Of a DNA stretch of 64,000 bases, positions 10,480-64,000 are shown piece after piece. The position numbers and the translations under genes are program-made. A model generated the notes under the pieces. That model did no database searches. It was not told the DNA's origin and saw nothing but the letters and a program-made list of their open reading frames with translations. The stretch spans positions 1,814,001-1,878,000 of the forward strand of contig NZ_CP022413.2 of NCBI RefSeq assembly GCF_002222595.2. The letters are read 5' to 3'. The first letter of the stretch is position 1. Each line of letters starts with the position of its first letter. The DNA is from Blautia hansenii DSM 20583 (GTDB lineage Bacteria; Bacillota; Clostridia; Lachnospirales; Lachnospiraceae).

Positions 10480-11151
10480 CTATAACTGCACCAATGTGAT
10501 ATCGGAAACCAGCGGATTTTCTCTTATTCTGTCCAGCACCTTGGCAGGTATTTTCTCATCAGACTCTACAACTGTAAAGGCTGCCGCACCTTTTTCTTCC
10601 CGAAACAGACGCATAAATGCAATATTTACCCCTTCCTCACTTAAAACTCTGGTAATATGAGCCACAACTCCGGGCTTGTCTGTCTGGCTTACGATTAAGG
10701 TGCTGTATTCCCCTGTAAAATCCACTTCTATCTGATTTAATTTTACGATTTTTACTTTTCCCCCGCCAATGGAAACTCCTCGGACAAAAAGCTTCTCCCC
10801 TTTTGTTCCCTCGATTTCCATATCTGCCGTATTGGGATGGATAGCCGCATCCTCCTGCGCAGAAACAGAAAAGCTATAATGAAGTCCCTGCTCCTTTGCA
10901 ATGCTTAAAGAGTCACGAATACGCAAATCATCGGTTTCAAAGCCCATAATTCCGCCTAAAAGCGCCCTGTCTGTACCATGCCCCCGATAAGTTCTGGCAA
11001 AAGAACCATACAGGGTAAAATGCACGCTCTTTATCTCTCCCGGAAACAGCTTTCTTGCCAAAAGAGCCATAGAAGCTGCTCCTGCTGTATGAGAGCTGGA
11101 GGGGCCTACCATATTGGGACCGATTACTTCAAATAAACTGATAAATGCCAT
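10480..11151 (-). CDS. sdaAB: L-serine dehydratase, beta subunit
   Basis: Partner of the alpha subunit. The N-terminal half carries E-V-I-G-P-N-M-V-G-P-S-S-S-H-T-A-G-A, a hallmark of the SDH beta domain. The C-terminal part (about residues 150-223) is an ACT domain with D-K-P-G-V-V-A-H-I. Full length for the split two-subunit form. AGGAGATAG precedes the ATG. Confidence 0.93.
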   Translation of the reverse strand: MAFISLFEVIGPNMVGPSSSHTAGAASMALLARKLFPGEIKSVHFTLYGSFARTYRGHGTDRALLGGIMGFETDDLRIRDSLSIAKEQGLHYSFSVSAQEDAAIHPNTADMEIEGTKGEKLFVRGVSIGGGKVKIVKLNQIEVDFTGEYSTLIVSQTDKPGVVAHITRVLSEEGVNIAFMRLFREEKGAAAFTVVESDEKIPAKVLDRIRENPLVSDITLVQL

Positions 11152-11207
11152 ATTTCTATCTCCTGTTATATTAAAAACTTGCGCTGCTGCACAATTTCCT
11201 GTGAAAT

Positions 11208-11241
11208 GAAAAAGGTACTGTGGTTTTATCCCTCAGCACCT
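11208..11241 (-). terminator. Terminator after yajC
   Basis: An 8-bp stem (11213-11220 with 11234-11241, one G.U on the minus strand), followed on the minus strand by TTTTTCATTTC. It separates yajC from sdaAB. Confidence 0.65.
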
Positions 11242-11251
11242 CTTATTTCTC

Positions 11252-17340: not shown

Positions 17341-18975
17341 TTACATAATATGAAGTTTTCTTGTAATCTGTATCAGTTTTCTTCCTCCCGGAAGCCCTGC
17401 CAATTCTTCTTCTCCCGGCTTTGCAAAATACAAATACAGAAGAAAATAGATACATGCACCTAAACCAATAGCCGGTATCAACGCCAAAAGATTTCCTCCC
17501 GGCAAGGCTTTTGTCATCATATAAATAACCTGATAAACTACAAATGCTGCAATTCCCATAGGAACAGCTGCAAAAAGAGCAGGTAAATAAGCAGTTTTCC
17601 ACGGATTTTTGTAATGCAATTCTTTTTTCAATGCTCTATCATTTAAAATACACATTACCAGTGCATAAACAATCATAGCCAGCACCACATTGTAAATTCC
17701 AAAATCTGTCACAAACATCAATACCGTAACTACAACTACATCAACTACCAAAGCAATGGCTGCGTTAATCATAGGGATATTAGCCTTTCCAATTCCCTGT
17801 AATACGCCATTGGAAATGTTGGACATTCCGTTCATAATAACTGTAATTACACCAAGCATCATTAAAAAGCCTGCGGTACCGTCTGTGGACGGAAATAAAA
17901 GTGCAGTAATCGGACCTGCCAGTGCAAAAAGTCCCACACTGCATGGAATAGAAATAAACATACTAAGCCATGTTGCTTTATCAATCTTTTCCTTCGCTGT
18001 TTTTAAGTCCCCTCTGGCATACGCCCCGGAAACCTCCGGCATCATAGAAGTAGGCGCTGTGCTTGACAGGGTAAGAGGAATGTTAATAATGGTTAAAAAG
18101 AACCCACATTCCGCATAAAATCCCTCTACAATGCTTCCTTTTAAGCCCTTCAGCTCTGACACAGAGGTATAAATCATACTGTTAATATAACCGTTTACGT
18201 TATACAAAAAGGCGCTTAAAATAATCGGAGCTACAATCATCACAATGATTTTCATAACATCCTTGTAGCTTTCATCCACCGACACCTTGTCTCTTGCAAT
18301 CTTTCTTTGAATAGTCTTTCTGTTTACCTGATAGACAAACAGCATAAAGATAAGCGCCGTTAAAACACCGGCTCCCGTTCCCAGAGTAGCCCCTGCCGCA
18401 CTCCAGCTTCGCAGCACGTCCGGCTGTGCATCTGCAAAATGATGCACCATAAAATTTGCCATTACCAGAGCTACCACGGCTACAGCAATCTGCTCCAAAA
18501 TCTGAGAAATAGATGTCGGAAGCATATTTCGATATGCCTGAAAATATCCTCGGAAAACACCCAGAATACCGGAAACAAAAATGGTCGGCGCTAAAAACTG
18601 AAGCGCAAGTCTTGCATTTGCCATTCCGTCAGGCACTAAAATCGGAGCGCCTACAATACAGATAACTGCCACAGCTCCGCCTACGATTACCGCATAAAGC
18701 AACGCTCCTTTAAAAATTCTCTGAGCATCTCGATATCTCTTAAACGCAAGTCTTTCTGCCATGATTTTTGACACAGCCTGAGGAATACTAAAGGATGCAA
18801 TCATCAGAAGAATAAAATACACATTCTGTGCAAACTGAAAGCATCCAAAGCTTTCTTTTCCCATTGTGCTTGACAAAGGGCTTTTGTAAATCAGCCCGAT
18901 AATCTTGGAAATCAGCGCAGCAATCATGAGAAAAGAAGCATTTTTCACTAATGTATTATCATTTTTCTTTCCCAT
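17341..18975 (-). CDS. MOP-superfamily flippase, SpoVB/YtgP (MurJ)-like
   Basis: 544 residues with about 14 hydrophobic segments and no signal peptide. It opens with K-N-A-S-F-L-M-I-A-A-L-I-S-K-I-I-G, typical of polysaccharide/lipid II transporters of the SpoVB/YtgP branch. Members flip undecaprenyl-linked peptidoglycan precursors (YtgP/MurJ) or act in spore cortex formation (SpoVB); I cannot choose between the two roles from sequence alone. It begins 2 bases after the ung stop, so the two form an operon. Confidence 0.85.
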   Translation of the reverse strand: MGKKNDNTLVKNASFLMIAALISKIIGLIYKSPLSSTMGKESFGCFQFAQNVYFILLMIASFSIPQAVSKIMAERLAFKRYRDAQRIFKGALLYAVIVGGAVAVICIVGAPILVPDGMANARLALQFLAPTIFVSGILGVFRGYFQAYRNMLPTSISQILEQIAVAVVALVMANFMVHHFADAQPDVLRSWSAAGATLGTGAGVLTALIFMLFVYQVNRKTIQRKIARDKVSVDESYKDVMKIIVMIVAPIILSAFLYNVNGYINSMIYTSVSELKGLKGSIVEGFYAECGFFLTIINIPLTLSSTAPTSMMPEVSGAYARGDLKTAKEKIDKATWLSMFISIPCSVGLFALAGPITALLFPSTDGTAGFLMMLGVITVIMNGMSNISNGVLQGIGKANIPMINAAIALVVDVVVVTVLMFVTDFGIYNVVLAMIVYALVMCILNDRALKKELHYKNPWKTAYLPALFAAVPMGIAAFVVYQVIYMMTKALPGGNLLALIPAIGLGACIYFLLYLYFAKPGEEELAGLPGGRKLIQITRKLHIM

Positions 18976-41925: not shown

Positions 41926-42907
41926 CATTTTGTTCATTTGTAGTCGCTACACTACAAACCGTCATCTTTCATGACTGCTTGCGCTCTCACGCAAGTTCAG
42001 ACTATATCTTTTCCAATCTCCATTTCAGACACCAAACACTTGTATCTTACGCCTCACTAATGAGGTCTTACTAGTCGTTGAACCTTCTCAAATAACCAAA
42101 TTTTTGTTCATAAAATATTCTTTTTTGCTTTGCCTCTTCAAGAGTATCGAAATCTTCATCTATAACATTACCATCGAGGTCAATTATTCTCATTCTGTAT
42201 GTTTTTCCACTTCTTTTTTTATTGTAGTGAACACCATTAAAAGGGATTTCTTTATTTTTTTCTGCTGTAGTTTTATTTCTCGCATTGATTTGAGGTGTAA
42301 CAATTCTAAGATTTGACTTTATATTGATTAGAGGATTTCTATTTATGTGGTCAACAACTGTATTTGTATCCGTTTTATTCATGACAAGATTATATAAATA
42401 GATTTTCTCTCCGTGAGTACGAGACATTGGATAACCATTCACATTAAGTTGCCAATAATATTTTTTAACTTTTCCTAAATCTTCTGTGTCAATTAAAATA
42501 TCAATTATCTTGGAATTTTTCTGTTCCCAGTAGTATATATGCGTTTCATTTCCGTCTATTTTATATGGGTTCCATATTTTTTCATCTTGATTATAACTTT
42601 GTTCTACAACAGCTTTTAGAAGTTCACCATATCTTTTTACAGAATAACTTGCTTTATTATCATCGCTAAATTTTACTATTACTCTTGTATCATATTCATA
42701 TATTGCTTTCACATATTCACACCTCCTCGTGTGTATTCTAGTTTTGGTTATTTAAGCTTGGCTGCGGATTGTCTAATTCTGATGCTTTTTACCCTATCTC
42801 CGACATTACTCTTTGCCATGTGTTCTTTGCAGAACACATTTGGTACATCAGACTCTAAAGAGTTTCCCGCAATTAAAAGACTTTTAATTCAGCCTGATAT
42901 TACATCC
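41926..42907 (-). ncRNA. Group I intron 1 in dnaE (982 bases, with HNH gene)
   Basis: Exon end TTCAGT (42908-42913) pairs with GCTGAA (42888-42893), giving P1 with U.G at the splice site. The core blocks ATTGCGGGAAACTC (near 42860-42873), ACAATCCGCAGCCAAGC (near 42755-42772) and AAAGATATAGTCTGAAC (near 41996-42012) are classical group I P4, P6/P7 and P7' sequences of phage introns. The last base is G (41926). A hairpin TGCGTGAGAGCGCA follows P7' as P9. The HNH gene sits in a peripheral loop. Confidence 0.92.
42071..42712 (-). CDS. Intron-encoded HNH homing endonuclease
   Basis: 213 residues. The HNH core is D-H-I-N-R-N-P-L-I-N...N-L-R-I-V-T-P-Q-I-N-A-R-N, and the C-terminal half is an AP2-like segment (G-V-H-Y-N-K-K-R-S-G-K-T-Y-R-M-R-I). 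It probably cuts intronless dnaE alleles at the insertion site and so spreads intron 1. Its ribosome binding site GAGGAG lies in the loop of a 5-bp hairpin (42718-42733), a likely control of translation from the unspliced or spliced RNA. Confidence 0.88.
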   Translation of the reverse strand: MKAIYEYDTRVIVKFSDDNKASYSVKRYGELLKAVVEQSYNQDEKIWNPYKIDGNETHIYYWEQKNSKIIDILIDTEDLGKVKKYYWQLNVNGYPMSRTHGEKIYLYNLVMNKTDTNTVVDHINRNPLINIKSNLRIVTPQINARNKTTAEKNKEIPFNGVHYNKKRSGKTYRMRIIDLDGNVIDEDFDTLEEAKQKRIFYEQKFGYLRRFND

Positions 42908-44930
42908 ACTGAAATAAATCCATTACTTTATTCTCGGCTATCCAATCCCACATTTCTTTTGTTTCGTAATCTAAAACATCAGGATGTAAGTATTTGTTAT
43001 ATGTATCTCTTAACGTTCCTTGCCATTGCATGTGCCCTGCTTCAATAAGTAGCTCCATACAATGTCTAACGATATCAAGAGATGAGATTGTCAACATATC
43101 TTGTTTCAAACCTCCACACCAATCTGAGTCGTGCATGTTGAATTGCGTTATATAAGTACCGTTTGGTGCTTTCATCCTAGCATTATGTTCTATAAAATCA
43201 TCATTGAACAGATACACTGCTGACGCATGTATGCTTCGTCCGCTTATAAGACCTTCTATATTTAATGCAGTTTCTAATAAATTAGGAATTTTTTTAATCT
43301 CATTTGCAAATTCGATAACAGGTTTTCTTTCCTCTTCCTCATTCCCATATAAGCAATCATGTATAGACCATGTAAAACCTCTTGTAATAGGAATAAGATT
43401 TGCAATGTGTTGAGCAATGTCATTATCAACTCCTAATCCTCTAGCCGCTGTAATAACTGCGGATTTACTTCCTTCTGTTTTAAACGTACAGCTATTGAGA
43501 ACTCTACGTTCGCCTTTACGTTTTTTAATTGCATTTACAATTTGTTTTCTTCTATTCCTTTGTGAATCTAAATCTATATCCGCTAATTCTGGGCGTTCAT
43601 GAGATATATGTCTCCAATGAGGTAATCCCCATTGTATAGGGTTCATTTGTATCAATCCAATTAAATACATGGTATACATACCTGTTACTGAACCTCTGGC
43701 TACTCCAACTAAAGAGTCTCCTTCATTCCACATAATCTCAATCAATTCCAATGTTGATATGTAATAAGAAGAAATGCTGTTTTTAATCTTCTCTGTAACT
43801 TTCCACATCTCGGAAAGCTCTATTTCTATCCTATCAATCAAGATTTTAAGTTCTTCGTCTTTAATTCCAACATAGTATCCTTTTGTTTTAAAACCCTGAG
43901 AAATTAAATGAAGTAAATATCTATCATACTTATTGTCGCTGTAAGCAAATTTTCTAATATATTCATGTGTATCATAGAAATCTTTGAAATAGTGTTCTTC
44001 TTGATATTCCGGTATATTTGCTTCTGGAACAATGGTTGAATGAGCAAGTGTATAATTACTTACTTTGTCTGCTATAACTTCTGTATTTCTAATTGCTTTA
44101 TTAACATTCTCTTCTCCAATTTGCCAATCTAAATACTCATGTATCTCTGTCACATTCATCATGTAAGTGGTTGCATAAAAATCACCAACTTCTCTTTCTT
44201 CTTCATGAGAATTTAAATATGCTTCATGAAATACCCTATCTTCTTTATTTACATAGTGTGCATCACAGGTAACGATAAATGGGATATCCAATTGTTCAGA
44301 AATGCTTATCAGAGTTTTATTTACTAAGACTTGTTCTTCAGAATTGTTTGGTTGAAGTTCAAAATAAAAATCTTCTCCAAATAAATCATAACAGTATTGC
44401 ACAAATTCATTAAATTTTTCTACATCTTTATTTAATATCCAATGTGAACATTCGCCACCAAGACATGCAGTGCTTGCAATTAAATGTCCGGGGTTTTCTT
44501 TTACAATTTTTTCTAAATCTGATTTTAAAGTTGGAGTTCTTTCCATTTTTCCTGTCTTGAAACTATTATCCCAAGCTAAAGAACTTAAAATTCTTAATTG
44601 TTTATGTCCAATTTCATCTTTTGCCAATAGTATGAAATGCCAAAATTTAGTAATACCTGATTTATAATTGTCTCTTACTTCTTCTAAAGAATTTACTAAA
44701 TATATTTCATTTCCCAATATCAGCTTAAAATCTTCTGGTATAGAACCTTCAGATTTTCCTTTTTCTACAATCTGCAAAGCTTGAACATGACCAGAAACAC
44801 TTTCATGGTCTGTTATTGCTATACCAGAGTTATTCAGATTTACTGCTTTTTGTATCAATTTAGATACCTTATTAATAGAGTCAATCAGACGAATATTTGA
44901 ATAATCACTATGTACATGCAAATGTAACAT
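42908..44930 (-). CDS. dnaE: DNA polymerase III alpha (DnaE-type), exon 1
   Basis: 674 codons plus one base. Begins M-L-H-L-H-V-H-S-D-Y-S-N, the PHP domain metal-binding start, with further PHP His/Glu residues (I-T-D-H-E-S, G-N-E-I-Y-L). The polymerase active-site aspartates are in D-I-D-L-D-S about two thirds along. Spliced to exons 2 and 3 (44930-42908, 41925-41467, 40985-39514) it makes 3954 bases, 1317 residues, in one frame. This is the element's own replicative C-family polymerase. Reading past 42908 gives a short false tail W-M and a stop inside the intron. Confidence 0.92.
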
Positions 44931-54427: not shown

Positions 54428-55597
54428 TCAATTCATGTCAAGCTCTTGATATCCCCATATATATCCTCCTGCTGATTGCCTTCTTCCAACTATGACATCC
54501 CATATATGTGAAATATGCAACTTTCGTTGTGCTTCGTTAATGCTAGGATATTCACCAATTATTTTTAAATCTTTCGTCATCTGAAAAATCGGCTTTGACA
54601 TGGTTTTTACTGTACGTTTTGAAGTTTCCTTGTTTGCCTTTAAAACCGCTTCTTTAGAATCATAAGAACACCATCCAATTTTAGCTCCCTTTTTTAACCA
54701 AGATACAATAGTATTTCTGCAATATCCCACTTCTCTGGATATTTCTTTTATTGATTTAGTTTTATTTTCATAAATATCACACACTGTTTTTAACATATTA
54801 TTACAGGTAGCCACATGACATAGCTCCCACTGTTCATCTGATAATGTTATTTTTTGGTTTAAAACTGTTTCGATATTACTTTGTAAAATACTGTTTTTAA
54901 TATAGTCTGCATCTGAATTACGAGCGTTTATTTCTATATAGTGTTGTATTCCATTTTTACTTGCAATATCTTTTTTGAAATCATCATTTGCTTTTTCTTG
55001 TTTTAATGTTCTTCCACCTAAATCTGTAAAACCGCTCTCTATGTAATGTTGTTTCCCGTGAACTTCAATAATACACATATAATCTTTTAAATAAAAATCG
55101 TATGATTTTTTCCCAGACCATTTAAAAGATACATGTTTAGTGTAATTAGTATTCATTAAATCTAAAAATTTTGACACATATTTTTCACCGTAGCTAATAA
55201 AATCATTACAGTTATTGCATTTATTCTTATTGGTAAGAAACTTGTTTGGAGCTTTATACATTACATATCCACAATCAGGACATTTCCAATAGATTTTTTT
55301 ATTAGAACCAAAAGTATATTTATATCCATCTTCTAAATTCAAAAGATATTTCATACATTCTGGATGTGTTGTAGCCATGTCGTTATACCCCTGTAAAACC
55401 GTATGATTGCTACATACTGTACAATGAAATCCATCATCTTTTATAATGTTCGATGGCAATGCCTCAAATTTATGTCCTTTGTTGCAAATCCATATATATT
55501 TTCGGTTTGTTTTGATTTCATTTATTTTATCTGTATTTTCATCTGAATATATTTGTGGATACATAGAAATGAAATTTTTTATCCTATCAATGTGCAT
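54428..55597 (-). CDS. Free-standing homing endonuclease-like protein (zinc ribbons, nuclease core, NUMOD1)
   Basis: About 389 residues from the ATG at 55597 (AGGGG upstream). Treble-clef/zinc-ribbon pairs (C-T-V-C, C-P-D-C, C-N-N-C), a nuclease-like middle (Y-D-F-Y-L-K-D-Y...I-I-E-V-H-G-K-Q-H-Y, a D...E-x-x-G-x-Q-H pattern of Vsr/PD-(D/E)XK type) and a C-terminal NUMOD1-like DNA-binding repeat (I-I-G-E-Y-P-S-I-N-E-A). Such proteins invade genes. Here it directly follows, and overlaps, a nucleotidyltransferase stub whose 3' part is missing. Confidence 0.75.
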   Translation of the reverse strand: MHIDRIKNFISMYPQIYSDENTDKINEIKTNRKYIWICNKGHKFEALPSNIIKDDGFHCTVCSNHTVLQGYNDMATTHPECMKYLLNLEDGYKYTFGSNKKIYWKCPDCGYVMYKAPNKFLTNKNKCNNCNDFISYGEKYVSKFLDLMNTNYTKHVSFKWSGKKSYDFYLKDYMCIIEVHGKQHYIESGFTDLGGRTLKQEKANDDFKKDIASKNGIQHYIEINARNSDADYIKNSILQSNIETVLNQKITLSDEQWELCHVATCNNMLKTVCDIYENKTKSIKEISREVGYCRNTIVSWLKKGAKIGWCSYDSKEAVLKANKETSKRTVKTMSKPIFQMTKDLKIIGEYPSINEAQRKLHISHIWDVIVGRRQSAGGYIWGYQELDMN

Positions 55598-55751
55598 GTT
55601 TACCCCTGTTAATATCCACATCGCTTGTTGGCAGGTTAGTTCCATAAGCAATAGAACCTCCCATACCAATCAAGCAGATGTTATTTCCTAAATGTGGGTT
55701 TTCTCTAAGAAATGAATATTCAGACTGTTTTAGAATTTCTCTGTAAGACAT
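55587..55751 (-). pseudogene. Nucleotidyltransferase (pol-beta-like) N-terminal stub
   Basis: 54 codons: the first 47 or so match the start of MNT-type nucleotidyltransferases, I-C-L-I-G-M-G-G-S-I-A-Y-G-T...S-D-V-D-I, i.e. the G-G-S motif and first catalytic Asp pair. Right after D-V-D-I the sequence turns into the endonuclease leader and a stop. No remainder of the domain exists downstream of the endonuclease, where only about 40 bases lie before the kinase-HD gene. So this gene was broken by insertion and deletion. A short product could still be made. Confidence 0.7.
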
Positions 55752-55753
55752 GA

Positions 55754-56728
55754 TTATTTAGAAGCTGGAGTTGTACCAGATGATACAATACGAACTGCAC
55801 CATTTGCTTTAACTGTTTCAGATGCTAGTGTGTTCATTTTAGTATAAGCATCATCTAACTTAGACTGTAATGTAGTTGTTTTACTTTCTTCCTGTTCTAA
55901 TTTTTCTTCAAGCATAGAAACTTTGTCTTCCAATTTTGCAATTTCATATTCTTTTTCTTTTTCATACATGGTTTTCTTATAACCATACTCTTTTGCAGCT
56001 TCTTTCTGACCAAGTTCTTTTGCTTCTTTCTCAGCATTTGCAATCAATTCTGGAATTTCTGCAACTTTTTCACGCAATCTTTCCAGTTCGTCTAATTTGC
56101 TTTCTGCTTCTACAAACATATTGTCAGCAGCCTCTTCCTTTGCATTTAAAACTTTTTCACGTTCTGCTTTTTCATCTTCCCATTTATCATTTTCAATCTT
56201 ACGCTGACGTGTCAGATTGTATCCATACTCTTCTTCTTCACGTTGACGTTCCTGTTTTACTTTTGCAATTTCTTCTGCTCTCGCAGCTCTTACTTCTTCT
56301 CGCACGGAGTCTTTTTGAGAAATCAAGTCATCTAACTCAGCTTCATATACTTTAATCAGCTCTTTGTGTTCAGCCATGAGTTTTTCTCTTTTAGCTTTAA
56401 ATTCTTCCTCTAATTGATAGTCTTTTTCTTTAGCTGCATTAATAATAGCTGCCAGAGAAGATGCTTCTACTTCAATATCATATAATTCTTGCAATTCTTT
56501 CTGTTTATTTTCAATGGTTTCCATTAAGTCTTCGTACTGTCGAGTAATTTCATCACTGAAAATATTGCTCTCTACAGCCTGAGCAGCATTTTCTTCAACC
56601 GCTACTTTTCTTTTATTTTCAGCCATATCCGCTGGCGTTTCTTTCATTTTCTGAACTTCCTCTACTTTTTTCAATGCTTCTGAATATGCATCAAAAAGTT
56701 CCTGTTTCGTATTCTTCATTGTCAACAT
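55754..56728 (-). CDS. Long coiled-coil protein
   Basis: 324 residues, almost entirely charged heptad-like helix (about 60-300) rich in E, K, Q and A. No signal or membrane span. ATG at 56728 has AAAGGA upstream. Overlaps the end of the small membrane protein gene by 38 bases. As last gene of the Ter-like block it may scaffold or sense the membrane complex; this is inference. Confidence 0.6.
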   Translation of the reverse strand: MLTMKNTKQELFDAYSEALKKVEEVQKMKETPADMAENKRKVAVEENAAQAVESNIFSDEITRQYEDLMETIENKQKELQELYDIEVEASSLAAIINAAKEKDYQLEEEFKAKREKLMAEHKELIKVYEAELDDLISQKDSVREEVRAARAEEIAKVKQERQREEEEYGYNLTRQRKIENDKWEDEKAEREKVLNAKEEAADNMFVEAESKLDELERLREKVAEIPELIANAEKEAKELGQKEAAKEYGYKKTMYEKEKEYEIAKLEDKVSMLEEKLEQEESKTTTLQSKLDDAYTKMNTLASETVKANGAVRIVSSGTTPASK

Positions 56729-56861
56729 TTTTTAATTCCTTTCTTTTCTCTTTGATTTTTTTATATATAGCAATGCCTTTATCTACAGCGAATGTAGCGG
56801 TCATTGTTCCTAGCAATACAATTACTGTATCCGTAAATACTTTTGCGAATTTTTCTTTCAC
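56691..56861 (-). CDS. Small membrane protein, 56 residues
   Basis: GTG start with a strong AAGGAGG site. One hydrophobic helix (about 8-27: V-F-T-D-T-V-I-V-L-L-G-T-M-T-A), a basic stretch (Y-K-K-I-K-E-K-R-K) and an acidic tail. It begins 2 bases after the SPFH gene stop, so it is probably translated with it. Confidence 0.6.
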   Translation of the reverse strand: MKEKFAKVFTDTVIVLLGTMTATFAVDKGIAIYKKIKEKRKELKNVDNEEYETGTF

Positions 56862-56862
56862 T

Positions 56863-57753
56863 TTATTCCTCCTTAACTACTGCATTTGCACCCTGAACAG
56901 TTACCCAACCATGCTGTAATCTTGCCTCTGCCTCTTTCATCTGAATGAGTTCTGGTGTAATGGAGTTAGATTTCAAATTATTTGCATCTGCCTCCGCCTG
57001 AGCTTCGATACGCATTTTTTCTGCTTTTGCTTGAGCCTGTGTTACTGCAATCTGAGCATCTGCTTCCGCTTGCATTTTTTCGGTTTCTTTTTGAACTTTA
57101 ATTTTTTCCTGCTCTGCTTCCGCTTGCTGTTTTTCCTGCAAAGCTTTCACTCTATCATCAATTGCTGCCTTTAACTTATCGTCAGGATGAACGTCAATAA
57201 TGGATGCATCCAAAACTTCAATGCCATACGCTTCGCCAAATTCTTCATTTAAATATTCAGTGATTTTGTCGTTGATTTCTGATCTATTTCCACTATATAA
57301 CTGCATCATACTGTAATCTGTTGTAATTTCAGAAATCTTTGATTTTAACACTGTTTTCACACGCTGTTCAACAATATCTTCTCCATCCATACCTTTGAAT
57401 TTCTTATATGTATCTACTACTGTTTCAGGAATATATCTATAGGACATCTGAAAACTAATAGAAATACTTGCATCATCAGAAGTAGCAACTTTGAAAGAGT
57501 CGTCCCCTTCACTTCCTTCTCTCTTATCTTTTGATAGAATTAACTGTTCATTTCCAATTGTAAATTCTTTTACGTGAATACCAGGAAGAACAAAATGTAC
57601 TCCCATGTCCAATACTTCATCTTTTACTCCACCATTCAATGAATATTGAACTCCTACTCTTCCTGTTGGAATTTTTTCCATCTGGCTCACTGTAAAAACT
57701 CCGCCTGCCAATGCAACTACTAAAACAATACTAGCTATAACTTTTTTCTTCAT
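56863..57753 (-). CDS. SPFH/Band 7 (prohibitin-like) membrane protein
   Basis: 296 residues: an N-terminal transmembrane segment (4-24), an SPFH domain (about 28-200, with G-R-V-G-V-Q-Y, F-V-L-P-G-I-H, R-V-K-T-V-L-K-S-K-I) and a long charged helix (200-270), the standard stomatin/prohibitin layout. Such proteins form large membrane scaffolds. The gene lies in the Ter-like block. Confidence 0.85.
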   Translation of the reverse strand: MKKKVIASIVLVVALAGGVFTVSQMEKIPTGRVGVQYSLNGGVKDEVLDMGVHFVLPGIHVKEFTIGNEQLILSKDKREGSEGDDSFKVATSDDASISISFQMSYRYIPETVVDTYKKFKGMDGEDIVEQRVKTVLKSKISEITTDYSMMQLYSGNRSEINDKITEYLNEEFGEAYGIEVLDASIIDVHPDDKLKAAIDDRVKALQEKQQAEAEQEKIKVQKETEKMQAEADAQIAVTQAQAKAEKMRIEAQAEADANNLKSNSITPELIQMKEAEARLQHGWVTVQGANAVVKEE

Positions 57754-57893
57754 GGCTTATGGTCTTCCTCCAATTCTTTTTCTATCTTTTTGTCATCTTT
57801 TTTGATTGAATTGATAACTTTATTTCCAATCCATACAATTATCAATCCCAACACTGCATATCCTAAAACCGCTAAAAGAAATAGAACCCACAT
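57750..57893 (-). CDS. Small membrane protein, 47 residues
   Basis: M-W-V-L-F-L-L-A-V-L-G-Y-A-V-L-G-L-I-I-V is a single membrane helix, followed by a charged tail (K-K-D-D-K-K-I-E-K-E-L-E-E-D). The stop overlaps the SPFH start (ATGA). AAAGGAATG lies upstream. Looks like a partner peptide of the SPFH protein. Confidence 0.6.
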   Translation of the reverse strand: MWVLFLLAVLGYAVLGLIIVWIGNKVINSIKKDDKKIEKELEEDHKP

Positions 57894-57894
57894 A

Positions 57895-58638
57895 TTATTT
57901 CATTCCTTTCTTTGCTTTCAGTTCAGCTAACTTCTTATTGATTTCTTCGTCTTTCATTTTTTTATCCAGACGTTTTTTCTGCACGCTAGCAGAATTTTCA
58001 TAAGCTATTCTGTTTCCTTCAGACTCTTCTCTTGCTTTTCTGACTCCATCTCTGACTTTTTCTAACATTTTATCTTCTTCATTTGAAGACACTGTGGTAT
58101 CAGCTTTCAAAGATTTTGTAGCTTCTACTGTTTCCAAAGTGAATACGGTTTTTTCTTTTTCAGCTTTTAACTGTGCCAAATCATCATAGAGCTTATCAAC
58201 TGTCTCTTTCTGCAACCTTTCGTTCTCTTTCAAATCCTTAATACCTTCTTTGAGAACTTCCATCTTATCTGTAATTTCTTGCTGCATTTTCAAATATGTT
58301 TTAGCCCCTTCATCATCACCACGAGATACGCAAGAGTCAATATCCATATTAACTTTCATTTCATCTTTTTGGAGTGTTCTTAAATCTTTTTCAAATGCAG
58401 ATAATTTTCCAAGAATTTGACTATAGTTAGCACTTGCTTTAGAATAATCTTCTTCTTTCTTTTCAATAGCAGCATTAAAATATGCTTTTGCACCTTCAGG
58501 AGTAGATGCATCTTCACTTAATTTTTCATTGATTGTTCCTGTTGCTCTAAGGCGAATTCTTTTGCCTATTTTTGTAAACAAAAGAATTCCTCCAACAATA
58601 CCAACAGTTAATAAAAGTAATACCGTTGCGAAAGTCAT
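57895..58638 (-). CDS. PspA/IM30-like membrane-associated coiled-coil protein
   Basis: 247 residues. It differs from classical PspA in having an N-terminal transmembrane helix (3-22). The body (about 30-230) is long charged helices with the PspA-like alternation and a central helical hairpin. PspA/Vipp1 proteins are ESCRT-III-like membrane-stress effectors. The gene lies between the TerD and SPFH genes, as expected for a stress module. Confidence 0.6.
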   Translation of the reverse strand: MTFATVLLLLTVGIVGGILLFTKIGKRIRLRATGTINEKLSEDASTPEGAKAYFNAAIEKKEEDYSKASANYSQILGKLSAFEKDLRTLQKDEMKVNMDIDSCVSRGDDEGAKTYLKMQQEITDKMEVLKEGIKDLKENERLQKETVDKLYDDLAQLKAEKEKTVFTLETVEATKSLKADTTVSSNEEDKMLEKVRDGVRKAREESEGNRIAYENSASVQKKRLDKKMKDEEINKKLAELKAKKGMK

Positions 58639-59279
58639 TAAGCATCCCTACCTTCATCAATGTCTAAATCAAATGTTTTAAATAATTCAACCATACCGCC
58701 TGTATAACCAGAACCAATTGCCTGAAATTTAAATCCACCGTTATGCTTGTATAATCTTCCAAGCTCCACAGCATTTAATTTTTCAAACTTTTCATCTTCT
58801 GATAAATCAAAGTTTGCTTCAAAACCTGACGGATTGTCATAGTCATATACTGTAACCATTGCATTATTTACCATGCCAAAATTCTGCAATCGTTGAATTG
58901 CTCTGAAAATTGTTAAGCAAATTGTAAAGTCTGTTTTGTTTGCTGGAAACTTATCAGCGTGAACAATAAAATACTCATCAAAATGTCTCCCATTAAATTC
59001 AATACCCTGTGAGTCATCGCCTGTTCTGTTATCTCCAGAGTATTCAACCCACGGATAATTTTTTCCATCTCCGTATGTACTAAAATTCACGATATCTGAA
59101 GGATATTGAACTTTTTTATCGCTGTTTGTTAAGAACCCATGTATATCAAAATCAATATCTCCTTCGCCGGAAAATCTATTCATATCCCAACGCACACCAA
59201 TGAAAATATTTTTAATGTTGCTTCCATCTTCTTTTGTCATGTTAATTTTTTGATTTTTACTCATATCAATTACTGGCAT
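58638..59279 (-). CDS. TerD-family protein
   Basis: 213 residues. The N-terminal I-D-M-S-K-N-Q-K-I-N-M-T-K corresponds to the S-L-S-K-G-x-x-V-S-L-S-K start of TerD, followed by I-F-I-G-V-R-W-D. The acidic G-D-I-D-F-D-I-H-G-F-L and R-T-G-D-D-S-Q-G segments are where TerD binds Ca2+. Family members take part in tellurite/stress systems. Single-base overlap with the PspA-like gene. Confidence 0.85.
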   Translation of the reverse strand: MPVIDMSKNQKINMTKEDGSNIKNIFIGVRWDMNRFSGEGDIDFDIHGFLTNSDKKVQYPSDIVNFSTYGDGKNYPWVEYSGDNRTGDDSQGIEFNGRHFDEYFIVHADKFPANKTDFTICLTIFRAIQRLQNFGMVNNAMVTVYDYDNPSGFEANFDLSEDEKFEKLNAVELGRLYKHNGGFKFQAIGSGYTGGMVELFKTFDLDIDEGRDA

Positions 59280-59291
59280 TTTTTCTTCCTC

Positions 59292-60038
59292 CTATTTATT
59301 CGCTAACCAATCTTTATATTGTCTCAAAAGCTCTGTATATAGCTGCTCATCATCTAATTTTGCAATATCTTTTACAGAGATAAACCCTGTATTATCATTC
59401 TCTCTGCCTTTCATGTCGTCCAAAGATTTCAGATATTTAAAATTATCATTTCCAATTCCTACAAACTGGACAAATATGTTGTATGCGGATAATTCCCTGA
59501 TAATGTCATTTGTTTTTTCTTTATCCCAGTTATCTCCATCTGTAATAAACATGATAAATGCAGGAATTGTGCTAGGCTCAATATCTTTATAGTGATGAAC
59601 CATACTTGTTAATACAGGTGCATATTCCGTACCTCCCATGCCCATACGTGCTTTCAACATTACTTTATCTACATAGTTTTCATAATTCTTTTCAGTAATA
59701 ACTTCAAGTCTTTCTTCTCCATTTGAAAATAGCCAACATTCCAGTTCTTTATTATCATCAAACCTCAAGGCAATAGGAAGAAGTCTTGTAATTACATCCT
59801 GTACTTTTCCTTCTCTAAATTCATCGCTCATACTTCCACTATAATCCATTGCAACTGCAACTCTTGCCGTATGTTTTGTCATATCAATCTTGTTATCTTT
59901 TGACATGTTAATTAAAACTTTATTCAAATTCTCTTTTGACATATCAATACATACTTTTTTAGTTTCCTGAGCTGGTGCACTATTGTGCCCAGACTCAGTT
60001 TCATTTTTATTTCCATTTAAAAAACTGAAAAATCCCAT
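59292..60038 (-). CDS. vWA-domain protein, TerF-like
   Basis: 248 residues. The vWA domain (about 55-248) has MIDAS D-Y-S-G-S-M-S, T-E-Y-A-P and F-I-T-D-G-D. The region before it repeats short TerD-start-like units (I-D-M-S-K, I-N-M-S-K, I-D-M-T-K). This resembles TerF, which joins TerD-like and vWA domains, but here only the short strand motifs remain. The ATG overlaps the ATPase stop (TAATG). Confidence 0.82.
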   Translation of the reverse strand: MGFFSFLNGNKNETESGHNSAPAQETKKVCIDMSKENLNKVLINMSKDNKIDMTKHTARVAVAMDYSGSMSDEFREGKVQDVITRLLPIALRFDDNKELECWLFSNGEERLEVITEKNYENYVDKVMLKARMGMGGTEYAPVLTSMVHHYKDIEPSTIPAFIMFITDGDNWDKEKTNDIIRELSAYNIFVQFVGIGNDNFKYLKSLDDMKGRENDNTGFISVKDIAKLDDEQLYTELLRQYKDWLANK

Positions 60039-62656
60039 TATTTATTTCTCCTTTTCTTCATTGTTTTTCTAATAAAATCTGCTAACAGAACGATTGTGGA
60101 TAATGCTGTTACTGCTAACCACTGAGTTAAGTTCAATGAAGCTGTATGTAATACGCTTCCCCCAAACTGTACAAGAGCAATAGTTCCTACGAAAATCCCA
60201 ATAGCAATTCGATAGAATAATTTATTCTTGCTTAATCCTTTAAACAGGTTTCTACTATCTGTTCTAAGAGTAAAGCCATTTAATACCGCCATAAAGCAAA
60301 GTAAAGCAAATCTCGCTGATAATCCAGCGGCTTCAGTTGCAAATAAATGCTTAATTGGACTAAAAATCATTAAACCAAACGCTAAAGAGAAGATACATGC
60401 GTTAATAGCAATATGTTTTTTACTTCCATTTACAAATAATCCTTCACCTTTCTTTAAAGGTTGTTCTTTCATATATTCATCTTTTGGAGGTTCACCACCA
60501 AATGATAAGGAGTTCAAAGAGTCCATAATAATGTTGATAATAAGAATAAGAGCTGATGTTAAGAAAGAGCCTGTTAAAAAGACTGGATATAAGAAGTTCA
60601 TAGCAAGAAGTGAATAATTGATTGGCAACTGGAAATTCAAGAACATAAGAATATTGTGCATAAATGTTCTTCCAAGTTTTACTCCTTTTACAATAGAAGC
60701 AAAGTTATCGTCTACAAGGATAATATCACCAGCTTCTTTTGCCACATCAGTGCCACTATTCATGGCGAAACCAACGTCAGATTTTGTTAATGCTGGTGCA
60801 TCATTTGTACCGTCACCTGTCATTGCTGTGGAATATCCAAGCTCCTGAGCTAATGTAATAAGTCTCAATTTTGTTGTAGGAGAACATCTAGCAATAACTC
60901 TTAAACGTGGAATAATGTCTTTAATTTCTTCATCTGTCATTCCAGAAAACTCTGCATCAGTTAAAGCCATATCACCTTTTTCATAAATACCAGCTTCTTG
61001 AGCTACTGCAACTGCTGTTTCAATACAGTCTCCTGTAATTTCTACTACTGTAATTCCAGCCTCTTTTGCTGTCTTAACAGCATCAGGAACTTCTTTACGA
61101 ACTGGATCTTGTACTCCAATTACTGCTGTGAATACTAAATCTTCTGGTATTACATTTTCCTCTAAAGCTTCCATATTGTATGCAAATGCAATACATCTCA
61201 TTGCTTTCGTGGTAAGGTCATAGATTTCACTCAAGATATTTATTCTATCCTCATCTGTCATTTCGACAATTTTCCCATTTTCTAGTCTGTATTTACAATT
61301 GGATAAAATCTTTTCAGGAGCACCCTTATAATAGGAAGTATCTCCAAACTCACAGCTTGTAGAAAACGCTGAATACTTAAATTGACTATTGAAAGGCTGT
61401 TTTTTAGATTTTGGGTTTTGAGTCAAAATAGAATTGAATTCAGATTGATTAAGAAGACTAAGCATTGCTCTATCTATTGAATTGCCACCAGTAATTTTTC
61501 CTTTTTCATCAAATAAGCTTCCGCTTGTTAAAGCTATATTTTCTTTAAGAATTTCTGGTAGATTATCTTTATTTATTTTTTGAGATTTCATGTCACCAGT
61601 AATAATTTCTTTTGGTGTCATAACACCTGTTGTCAATGTTCCTGTTTTATCTGTACATACGTAATTCACATAAGCCAATTCTGGTATCTTTGAAGGATTT
61701 TTTGTAAGAATATTTGCCTTTTCCATTGTCTTAACATTCATTTTAGTAACAAATTTTACAATCATTGGTAATCCTTCTGGTACAGCAGCTACAATAATTG
61801 TCAGGGCTACTGAAATGTTTTCAGCGATTGTTCTTATTATCTGTAACACATCTCCTGAAAAGTATTCTCTAAATCCAACTTCTAAGATACCTGTTGCTGT
61901 TGCGATTAAAAATCCTCCAAAGGCTGCCACTGTTCCCCATTTAGAAATAAAATCAGCTAACTTATCTAATGCAATATCTAAAGCAGTTTTAGTAGGCTCT
62001 AATGTTTGCATTTTTACCAGTGTGTCTCCATTGACAGTGTTAATACCAACTGTCTGTACTAACATTTTTGCTTCACCAGACATAACAGTTGTTCCGGCAA
62101 ATACGCACGTTTCATCTGTATAATGGTCTGTAGTTATTTCTTCTGGATATTTAAATCCTGAAATGTAATGTTTTTTACATTCTTTTGTTTCACCATTAAT
62201 TGCAGCGTTACTTACAGCAATTTCACCTTCAACAATGTAACCATCTGCAAAGATTTCCTGTCCCATTTCAAGACATATAATATCGCCAACTACAATATCA
62301 TCTTTATTGATTTTTACAACAGAACCATTTCTAATTACATTACAATATCTAACCGCCGTTTTTGCTCTTAGACTATTATTTGATTTCTGTATTGATAGAT
62401 TTGTTCTAACATTAATTCCACTCACAATTGCTAACACTGCTAAAATAATAACAGGCTCACTAAAACTTTCTACTCCTAGAAATGCAAGAGCAAAGAAAAC
62501 TCCAGCCATCATGATTAGAATAATTGTGATTTTATCCTTTAATCCGTCTGTAAAAAAATTAAACCACGTCTTTTGCTTTGGTTCTGGCAGCTTATTGCTA
62601 CCATATTTTTGTCTGCTTTTTTCTACTTGCTGGTCATTTAAACCATTCAAATTCAT
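60038..62656 (-). CDS. Cation-transporting P-type ATPase (Ca2+-type, P2)
   Basis: 872 residues with about ten membrane segments. P-E-G-L-P (293-297) is in the metal-binding helix M4 as in Ca2+ pumps, the phosphorylated Asp336 is in C-T-D-K-T-G-T-L-T, and the hinge motif is T-G-D-G-T-N-D-A-P. A-domain I-N-G-E-T replaces T-G-E-S. It most resembles PMCA/SERCA-type pumps, but the ion is inferred. An element-borne P-type ATPase is unusual. It overlaps DUF2828-like and vWA genes at both ends. Confidence 0.9.
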   Translation of the reverse strand: MNLNGLNDQQVEKSRQKYGSNKLPEPKQKTWFNFFTDGLKDKITIILIMMAGVFFALAFLGVESFSEPVIILAVLAIVSGINVRTNLSIQKSNNSLRAKTAVRYCNVIRNGSVVKINKDDIVVGDIICLEMGQEIFADGYIVEGEIAVSNAAINGETKECKKHYISGFKYPEEITTDHYTDETCVFAGTTVMSGEAKMLVQTVGINTVNGDTLVKMQTLEPTKTALDIALDKLADFISKWGTVAAFGGFLIATATGILEVGFREYFSGDVLQIIRTIAENISVALTIIVAAVPEGLPMIVKFVTKMNVKTMEKANILTKNPSKIPELAYVNYVCTDKTGTLTTGVMTPKEIITGDMKSQKINKDNLPEILKENIALTSGSLFDEKGKITGGNSIDRAMLSLLNQSEFNSILTQNPKSKKQPFNSQFKYSAFSTSCEFGDTSYYKGAPEKILSNCKYRLENGKIVEMTDEDRINILSEIYDLTTKAMRCIAFAYNMEALEENVIPEDLVFTAVIGVQDPVRKEVPDAVKTAKEAGITVVEITGDCIETAVAVAQEAGIYEKGDMALTDAEFSGMTDEEIKDIIPRLRVIARCSPTTKLRLITLAQELGYSTAMTGDGTNDAPALTKSDVGFAMNSGTDVAKEAGDIILVDDNFASIVKGVKLGRTFMHNILMFLNFQLPINYSLLAMNFLYPVFLTGSFLTSALILIINIIMDSLNSLSFGGEPPKDEYMKEQPLKKGEGLFVNGSKKHIAINACIFSLAFGLMIFSPIKHLFATEAAGLSARFALLCFMAVLNGFTLRTDSRNLFKGLSKNKLFYRIAIGIFVGTIALVQFGGSVLHTASLNLTQWLAVTALSTIVLLADFIRKTMKKRRNK

Positions 62657-64000
62657 TTGCTTTTTCCCTCCAGTTCTTTAAATCTATCTTCAATAATCTG
62701 ATACCTTTCTGTATTAAGCTGTTTTAATAGGCATTTGTACGGGTCTAATTCATTACTTAATACCATATTCATTATGTTTACAGAATATCCTGATACAAGT
62801 GCTACTCCATTCGCATTTTCTCTAACAGGGATTGTTCCTGTTCTTGAACAAATATTCCAAAACACCAGTCTTGGTAATTTATATCCGTATCGTTCATATT
62901 CTTTAGCAAATTCATCAAACATTGCTTTATCTGTTCTTCCTGAAGTCATACAGTCAAATTCCATATCCGAAATCATCAATAGCGTGTTTGGCAAATCAGA
63001 TTGTTTCATGTTGTTTTTTACAGCCGTGTCTAATAATAACTGGAATACTCTTTCAATATTCGTATTACTGCAATCTGTATTTTTTAAAGTAATCTGAATT
63101 TTTTCTTTAAGATTTTGACAGTTGCTAATATCAACAAACCTTGGTCTATTTCCAAATGTCATAAACTTATTATTGAATTGACCAGAACATCTCTCAGCAA
63201 AGTAAATAGAAAGTGCTGTTGCAACTTCTTCTGCTTGCACTGAAGAATTTCTATCTATTGGTTGATACATACTTCCAGAACCATCTTGAATAACCATAAT
63301 ATTTTCTGCTGACTGAATAGTATCTTTTTGATTTTTCCAAAGTTGTTCTAATGTCTCATCATATTTTTTTAATTTATAACTCCAACCATATCCATCTACA
63401 GTAACATACTGATGCACAATATCGTGAGGAAAGTTAGTAGAAGCATTGATTTTTACTCCTTCTTTTCCGTTAGCCAAATCTTCAAGATACTGTTGTCTTC
63501 TTTCTGGATCGTGTTTAAGAAAAGCGTTTCGATATAATAGATTTGCTTTAGAAGGTACTGAATTGTAGTCAATTGCTGACCATTGATTTGCACACATAAA
63601 AGTTTCTACCAAATTGAGTTTCTTACGCAATTTCACCAACATACGATTGTATGTCTTATCATCGAGTTCTAACCCTTCAATAATAAGTCTTGCATAATGT
63701 CTTGATATATGACTTTCTGCATTACGTTTTGGTAGCCACTTCGCAAGCAATGATATTGGTTTATCTTCAGTATAATTTTTAATATCTTCTTGAAGCTGTG
63801 CGTTTATCATTTTAATTACTATACTGTTAAGTTGTGTATCAAGCAATACCCATGTATCATCATATCGTCCATATTCTGCTATATATGGAATAAATAGTGT
63901 CATCTCATGTGGTCTAAAGTCAGCCATATACTTGATAATTCTGTGAAAAGTATCTCTTTCACCCATCCCACCTCTAATATCACGTAAGAAGAATAGCCAT
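62653..64000 (-). CDS. DUF2828/TROVE-vWA-like protein (partial, 5' end beyond window)
   Basis: At least 448 residues; the frame is open to the right window edge. An ATG at 63966 exists but is not the start: the residues before it, L-R-D-I-R-G-G, run into M-G-E-R and form the conserved R-D-I-R-G-G-x-G-E-R of DUF2828 proteins. The C-terminal half is a vWA domain with Q-D-G-S-G-S-M near residue 230 of the visible part and M-I-S-D-M-E-F. The family has a TROVE-like (Ro RNA-binding type) HEAT N-terminal part. Overlaps the P-type ATPase by 4 bases. Confidence 0.8.
   Translation of the reverse strand, partial: WLFFLRDIRGGMGERDTFHRIIKYMADFRPHEMTLFIPYIAEYGRYDDTWVLLDTQLNSIVIKMINAQLQEDIKNYTEDKPISLLAKWLPKRNAESHISRHYARLIIEGLELDDKTYNRMLVKLRKKLNLVETFMCANQWSAIDYNSVPSKANLLYRNAFLKHDPERRQQYLEDLANGKEGVKINASTNFPHDIVHQYVTVDGYGWSYKLKKYDETLEQLWKNQKDTIQSAENIMVIQDGSGSMYQPIDRNSSVQAEEVATALSIYFAERCSGQFNNKFMTFGNRPRFVDISNCQNLKEKIQITLKNTDCSNTNIERVFQLLLDTAVKNNMKQSDLPNTLLMISDMEFDCMTSGRTDKAMFDEFAKEYERYGYKLPRLVFWNICSRTGTIPVRENANGVALVSGYSVNIMNMVLSNELDPYKCLLKQLNTERYQIIEDRFKELEGKSK

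Follow-up and report, generated by a model that had tools for sequence, protein, structure and literature searches.

What does a prophage gain from an operon that joins a calcium pump to Ter-type proteins, and how many of its genes belong together? The operon lies in Blautia hansenii DSM 20583, in a 64,000-nucleotide stretch of DNA that we analyzed as a whole (hereafter, the window; positions 1,814,001-1,878,000 in a genome of 3.07 Mb on one contig). The original prediction described its nine genes as one Ter-like membrane and Ca2+ module carried by a mobile element. By sequence comparison, the conserved unit is four of these nine genes, which encode a Ca2+ P-type ATPase, a TerF-like vWA protein, TerD, and a membrane-anchored PspA-like protein.

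Gene content of the operon

All nine reading frames were found on the minus strand in the predicted place, and adjacent genes overlapped or lay no more than 12 bases apart, in agreement with an overlapping operon. The first gene (62653-64000) runs past the window edge and encodes in full (genome 1,876,653-1,878,272) a 539-aa vWA protein matching the Pfam families DUF7788 (140.8 bits) and DUF2828 (85 bits) as well as phrog_850, named "RNA-binding protein"; it lies outside the conserved cassette. The four core genes follow, encoding an 872-aa PMCA-like (P2B) Ca2+ P-type ATPase (60038-62656), a 248-aa TerF-like vWA protein with MIDAS residues present (59292-60038), a 213-aa TerD protein (58638-59279), and a 247-aa PspA-like protein with an N-terminal hydrophobic helix (57895-58638). 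The gaps between them of -1, 12, and -1 bases are typical of translational coupling. The operon ends with genes for a 47-aa membrane protein (57750-57893), an SPFH/Band_7 protein (56863-57753; Band_7, 91.8 bits), a 56-aa membrane protein (56691-56861), and a 324-aa coiled-coil protein (55754-56728; phrog_29668).

With 199.7 bits against vWA-TerF-like (PF10138; cut-off, 29.4), the vWA protein is of the TerF type. The TerD protein matched PF02342 at 121.7 bits (cut-off, 25.3) and the solved TerD structure 2kxt at E 5.8e-24, and it is the sole TerD match in the genome. TerC and TelA had been predicted to be absent, and we found no TerC match genome-wide and TelA at only two places, both outside the prophage. 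PADLOC gave a best match of only E 0.0057, and promoter-like sites (51 vs. a shuffled mean of 59.8) were uninformative.

The pump carried the Pfam domains E1-E2 ATPase and Cation_ATPase_N/C. Its best family was TIGR01517 (NCBIfam) at 499.5 bits, narrowly missing the cut-off of 507.05, and its best solved relatives were the plasma-membrane-type ACA8 (8qmp) and Listeria lmo0841. The window copy contained DKTGTLT, PEGLP, NIIMD (the M6 N-x-x-x-D), and FQLPIN. Across the 21 rows of the ATPase alignment, DKTGTLT and PEGLP recurred in 20, the exception (L020) being a C-terminal fragment, and NIIMD recurred in 19, with the exact pattern missing in the pair L051/L052. Judging by this alignment, the pump has kept its catalytic and site-II ion-binding motifs. 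Substitution ratios place both the pump and the PspA-like protein under purifying selection: dN/dS was 0.03-0.16 in 13 of 16 comparisons (eight pairs, both genes), values that are rough for the four of these 13 with dS >1, while the remaining comparisons comprised one ratio of 0.00 on two synonymous changes and two that were saturated.

The PspA-like protein differs from PspA/Vipp1 (IM30) in its N-terminal hydrophobic helix and in scoring below the family cut-off (PspA_IM30, PF04012: 25.5 bits vs. 33.9; the homologue in L034 scored 25.2). Its predicted structure consists of an N-terminal helix and a long helical hairpin; in a comparison with the ESCRT-III-like hairpin fold, unrelated coiled coils scored equally well, and its profile retrieved weak, unrelated matches only among solved structures. 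Homologues numbered 447, and the alignment was built from 22 of the 120 matches listed. The protein is rare among related bacteria, occurring in 2 of 299 family genomes and 2 of 391 class genomes (its own genome in both, and the second class match weak). The gp247 protein of Bacillus phage G (L013:20001-20525) is a distant relative (28%) whose gene has ABC transporter and OmpA/MotB genes nearby.

The surrounding element

GC content falls from ~0.40 to 0.29-0.34 near 1,836 kb and comes back up at ~1,930 kb. Matches to phage families included integrases, ribonucleotide reductase, a RecD-like helicase, DNA polymerase, primase, DnaB, Sak4, RNA ligase, and DNA ligase. A terminase at 1,992,756-1,994,549 shares 49% identity with the terminase of viral record G304, whose proteins found matches in mostly kept order from ~1,984 to 2,046 kb. 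The GC course, the phage-family genes, and the G304-like terminase and protein matches identify the element as one large prophage (~1,837 to 2,046 kb) divided by a foreign, GC-richer insert of ~50 kb. The insert (genome ~1,930,500-1,983,000) separates the early arm, where the calcium-pump/Ter cassette is located, from the virion arm, and its start adjoins a large gene for a recombinase of the invertase/integrase type (phrog_95, phrog_125).

At 54428-55751, a homing-endonuclease-like gene (NUMOD1) follows a short remnant of a phage protein family. The remnant matches the family start (a G304 protein shares 61% over 41 aa with it), the family is like the nucleotidyltransferases of relatives, and a nucleotidyltransferase-like gene appears to have been interrupted here. 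The match of a 676-aa frame at 42900-44930 to a phage DNA polymerase family is confined to the first part of that family (45-647 of 1190), and a reverse-transcriptase-like gene within the prophage (L003:17343-18623; phrog_1423) matches a G304 gene at 51% over 423 aa. Small proteins of several phage loci have an FVTNSSSSSF-type start motif in common (L019:3592-4370, L055:9239-10009).

Conservation of the operon across relatives

Relatives were gathered by scans with the PspA-like protein, the ATPase, and the vWA protein, which yielded 24 distinct loci; in viral contigs, single-sequence scans with the ATPase or the DUF2828 protein found nothing, and alignments gave matches. The complete cassette was present in 20 of the 24, in the same order and on the same strand, with the ATPase cut by a contig end in L016 and L020. 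The synteny count left out L053, L055, and L056, where a vWA gene was found and no ATPase, TerD, or PspA-like gene lay in reach, as well as L044, which meets a contig end and is probably the same phage as L016, since L016 begins where L044 stops. Including the window, the ATPase, TerD, and PspA-like genes were adjacent in one order and on one strand in 21 of 21 complete loci, with 14 ATPase lineages at 90% identity; the linkage has lasted through long divergence. The predicted conserved neighborhood of a Ter-like membrane/Ca2+ module on mobile elements was thus borne out for this core. Because cassette genes served as queries, the adjacency is partly ascertained, and the counts per query matter: the cassette was complete in 8 of 8 loci reached with the PspA-like protein, 15 of 16 reached with the ATPase (the other ends at a contig edge), and 9 of 12 reached with the vWA protein.

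The cassette occurred in two architectures. Architecture A, which the window shares with ten relatives, runs ATPase-vWA-TerD-PspA-like; architecture B, found in another ten, runs ATPase-TerD-TerD-TerD-PspA-like with no vWA gene (TerD frames are irregular in L029 and L041). Of the 21 loci, whose flank lengths differ, 11 had vWA, 9 a nucleotidyltransferase, 9 an RNA ligase, 7 a polynucleotide kinase, and 5 SPFH; no non-cassette family was more widespread than 9 of 21.

The remaining genes of the operon did not share this conservation. Within flanks of 8-10 kb, where the contig allows, the DUF2828 and coiled-coil genes were found beside 0 of 24 relatives and SPFH beside 5 of 24 (4 of the 20 complete ones), and neither the 47-aa nor the 56-aa membrane protein was found in the 24 relatives' loci. 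G304 has its cassette at 48-53 kb, ~25 kb from a coiled-coil homologue at 22-23 kb; in G299, ~15 kb separate the cassette (39-44 kb) from an SPFH homologue (59-60 kb). On these flank counts and distances, we dropped the idea of a nine-gene system and regard the SPFH and coiled-coil genes as accessory neighbors. The coiled-coil protein also has homologues in phage G (gp268) and phage LysYB1, and the LysYB1 relative directly precedes two TerD genes, one hint that such a coiled-coil protein can be a Ter partner.

Exchange of the Ter/PspA half

Architectures A and B were intermingled in the ATPase tree, where a single B clade was rejected (AU p 4.08e-5) and placement of the long branches (window, L008, L018, and L051/L052) is unsure. 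The PspA-like tree, by contrast, split A from B with support of 100/100. G131 (B) and L014 (A) share 83% identity in the ATPase but 33% in the PspA-like protein, and their DNA similarity ends at G131 position 18,209, 19 bases beyond the ATPase stop. Similarity between G131 and each of L014, L015, L017, and L020 ended within ~20 bases of this stop, except that L015 and L020 have patches of 90 and 137 bases within their PspA-like genes. Between G131 and L037, which is also of architecture B, it continued through the TerD genes and beyond the PspA-like gene. The conflict between the trees and the similarity break near the ATPase stop show that the downstream Ter/PspA half has been exchanged as a block, and the weak correlation between ATPase and PspA-like distances (Spearman 0.38) is what such exchange would give.

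Related pumps in bacterial Ter operons

For a bacterial comparison, we took the 30 best-scoring TIGR01517 loci from 196 class genomes. TerD lay within 1.5 kb in 3 of these 30 pump loci, some of whose flanks end with the contig. Wider regions of 11 loci contained three Ter operons, arranged as YceG-TelA-TerD x3-pump (L128), C-C lyase-PRTase/TRSP-StiP-pump-TerD/vWA fusion (L127), and TerD-pump-TerD-AIM24-TerD (L126). In a quick tree of bacterial and phage ATPases with DKTGT, the 13 phage pumps (8 of 21 were left out as near-copies or a fragment) had a sister clade of 11 rows with support of 93, and the joint clade had support of 100. This sister clade held the three Ter-operon pumps, the pump of L012, a fecal fragment in which it is linked to TerD, and seven others for which no TerD was found nearby. 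The nearest non-phage relatives of the pump, as placed by this tree, include pumps inside bacterial Ter operons. Locus L010, filed as phage but perhaps bacterial, also reads YceG-TelA-TerD x3-pump.

The three operons, the sister-clade position, and L010 together indicate that certain bacterial Ter operons include the pump; on this reading, the phages carry a reduced set plus the PspA-like protein. Like the phage cassette, the bacterial systems L127 and L128 bring TerD, a TerF-type vWA, and a sister-clade PMCA-like pump into one operon. However, bacterial Ter systems have TelA, YceG, StiP, and biosynthetic enzymes, which the phage set does without, whereas the phage set adds the membrane-anchored PspA-like protein, for which no match was found in the 11 bacterial regions scanned.

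Relation to described phage systems

Parts of the cassette have been described before. According to the available part of PMC12363816, Jug phages, which are large gut phages, carry a Ca2+ ATPase and terD- and pspA-like genes; their ATPase and terD regions are highly transcribed, with virion genes ranking low, and the ATPase occurs in 85 further phages, of which 81 are huge phages and 4 measure 159-197 kb. That paper treats the pump, together with a small gene upstream of it, apart from the terD-pspA pair; "von Willebrand" has 0 occurrences in that text as available, which describes neither one operon nor a vWA partner. The available part of PMC7824862 reports Ter genes in jumbo phages and proposes a role in competition with superinfecting phages. 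As in our cassette, these include phage-borne TerD and TerF, but they come with TerC, TelA, or biosynthetic genes; the same text has 0 occurrences of "P-type ATPase" and of "PspA" and describes no single operon with a vWA partner. The claim that no described system has this makeup therefore needs narrowing: the parts are known from Jug and jumbo phages, and a single operon with the vWA gene is not described in the available portions of those two papers. A literature search, mostly among papers open without subscription, found no description of the four-gene operon.

tRNA-like RNAs upstream of DUF2828

Upstream of the DUF2828 gene, past the window, lie three ordinary tRNAs, an odd match to tRNA at 36.2 bits, and three minus-strand tRNA-like RNAs of 110-126 bases with long anticodon-arm extensions (L002:10392-10516, 10525-10650, and 11137-11246; genome 1,878,391-1,879,245). 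In two of these RNAs, the anticodon arm holds 43 and 65 bases at places for which the Rfam tRNA model expects 6 and 13. A YrlA gene was considered and rejected, as the Rfam match (32.5 bits; cut-off, 69) straddles two neighboring tRNA-like RNAs. Similar long tRNA matches lay just upstream in part of the 20 viral DUF2828 loci searched with Rfam (of 23, without L156, L157, and L158). The DUF2828 alignment comprised the query and 24 of the 120 matches listed, at least 7,986 having been found.

A covariance model built from 18 RNAs was run on 67 sources, namely L002, the 23 viral DUF2828 loci, and 43 others. Matches of at least 100 bases and 44 bits were found in L002 and 10 of the 23 DUF2828 loci (L144 and L156 have the same matches) and in 0 of the 43 others, where matches spanned 73-84 bases and reached at most 37.2 bits. 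All of these long matches lay upstream on the strand of the DUF2828 gene, and six were outside the training set, L156 copies aside. L150 had a partial match downstream of DUF2828, 12 DUF2828 loci had none at the 44-bit level, and weaker long matches of 26-31 bits included one downstream in L143. A regular expression for the RNAs matched in 6 of 23 DUF2828 loci, fewer than the covariance model, and in 0 of 135 others. As putative tRNA mimics, these RNAs would keep the acceptor, D, and T arms and have, in place of the anticodon arm, an extension of ~40-65 bases carrying C[A/U]GCAA, which a loose pattern (C[A/T]GCAA) found in 22 of 24 RNAs, once at an odd place. RNAalifold on the 18 RNAs recovered the acceptor and T arms, with changes on both sides in 11 of 13 pairs, and no consensus hairpin in the extension. 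A hairpin before the motif was above the shuffled mean in 20 of 22 RNAs and singly below 0.05 in 1 of 22.

The DUF2828 profile had no match among solved structures, and the presumed kinship to Ro60 comes from the original prediction and the PHROG name. The tRNA-like RNAs beside DUF2828 suggest, without proving, a Ro60/Y-RNA-like RNP. It is possible, though at somewhat less than even odds, that the first gene of the operon supplies one half of a phage RNP, in which a Ro60-like DUF2828 protein would pair with an undescribed tRNA-mimic RNA family encoded just upstream, placing an RNP module and the Ca2+/Ter cassette on one transcript. The available part of PMC7824862 notes that some phages have Ro/TROVE proteins and that, in cells, there is a tRNA-like partner; the papers found to name DUF2828 deal, by their titles, with plants.

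Possible function of the cassette

The cassette looks like a phage-adapted, cut-down Ter stress system around a Ca2+ pump, and it probably guards the host cell membrane. We rank superinfection exclusion or cell preservation first, with a probability of roughly one-half. The four proteins would assemble into a complex at the cytoplasmic side of the cell membrane; an envelope breach, such as entry of rival phage DNA or a pore-forming attack, would cause Ca2+ to rise. TerD would bind this Ca2+, the vWA protein would connect TerD to a membrane scaffold of anchored PspA-like protein, the scaffold would seal or stiffen the membrane, and the pump would bring Ca2+ back to a low level. The likeliest benefit would be an infected or lysogenic cell that is kept intact with rivals shut out. 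Counted against this explanation are the ten cassettes without a vWA gene, the three loci with vWA only, the separate description of pump and terD-pspA pair in Jug phages, the below-cut-off scores of the pump and the PspA-like protein, the tie of the latter's fold match with unrelated coiled coils, and the seven sister-clade pumps with no TerD nearby.

A less likely account is counter-defense, in which Ca2+ export and sealing would shield the phage's own infection from membrane-permeabilizing abortive-infection effectors. The cassette sits in the early arm, and the same flanks carry RNA ligase and polynucleotide kinase genes (in 9 and 7 of the 21 loci), which PMC7824862, in its available part, describes as repairing RNA cut by RNase effectors. 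However, the proximity to these RNA-repair genes is loose and variable, and the module is not known to counter any host effector. We find it more doubtful still that the cassette serves host physiology, with Ca2+ export tuning the cytoplasm for replication, the view taken in the available part of PMC12363816, and the Ter and PspA components dealing with ordinary stress. This account fits the high transcription in Jug phages (same source) and the occurrence of bacterial Ter operons containing a pump of this kind, but the host genome already has two further related pumps (32 and 30% identity), and the phage pump stays linked to the TerD and PspA-like genes instead of occurring by itself. Cargo for tellurite or metal resistance is quite improbable: TerD and TerF belong by name to tellurite-resistance operons, yet no TerC, which the title of PMC12054061 names as contributing to tellurite resistance, was found in the genome, and tellurite selection in the gut does not seem obvious. 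Least probable of all are accidental neighbors in a gene-dense phage arm: the other genes around the cassette do vary, but the core holds in every complete locus across its lineages and both architectures, under purifying selection.

Whatever the exact role of the cassette, conserved synteny, seen both among phages and in some Ter operons of bacteria, links a Ca2+ pump to the Ter proteins, which are poorly understood; the four-gene set is small enough for testing what Ter systems do. The swapping of the Ter/PspA half behind one pump shows which parts can be interchanged. If the exclusion role is true, the cassette would give large gut phages a compact device for guarding the membrane.
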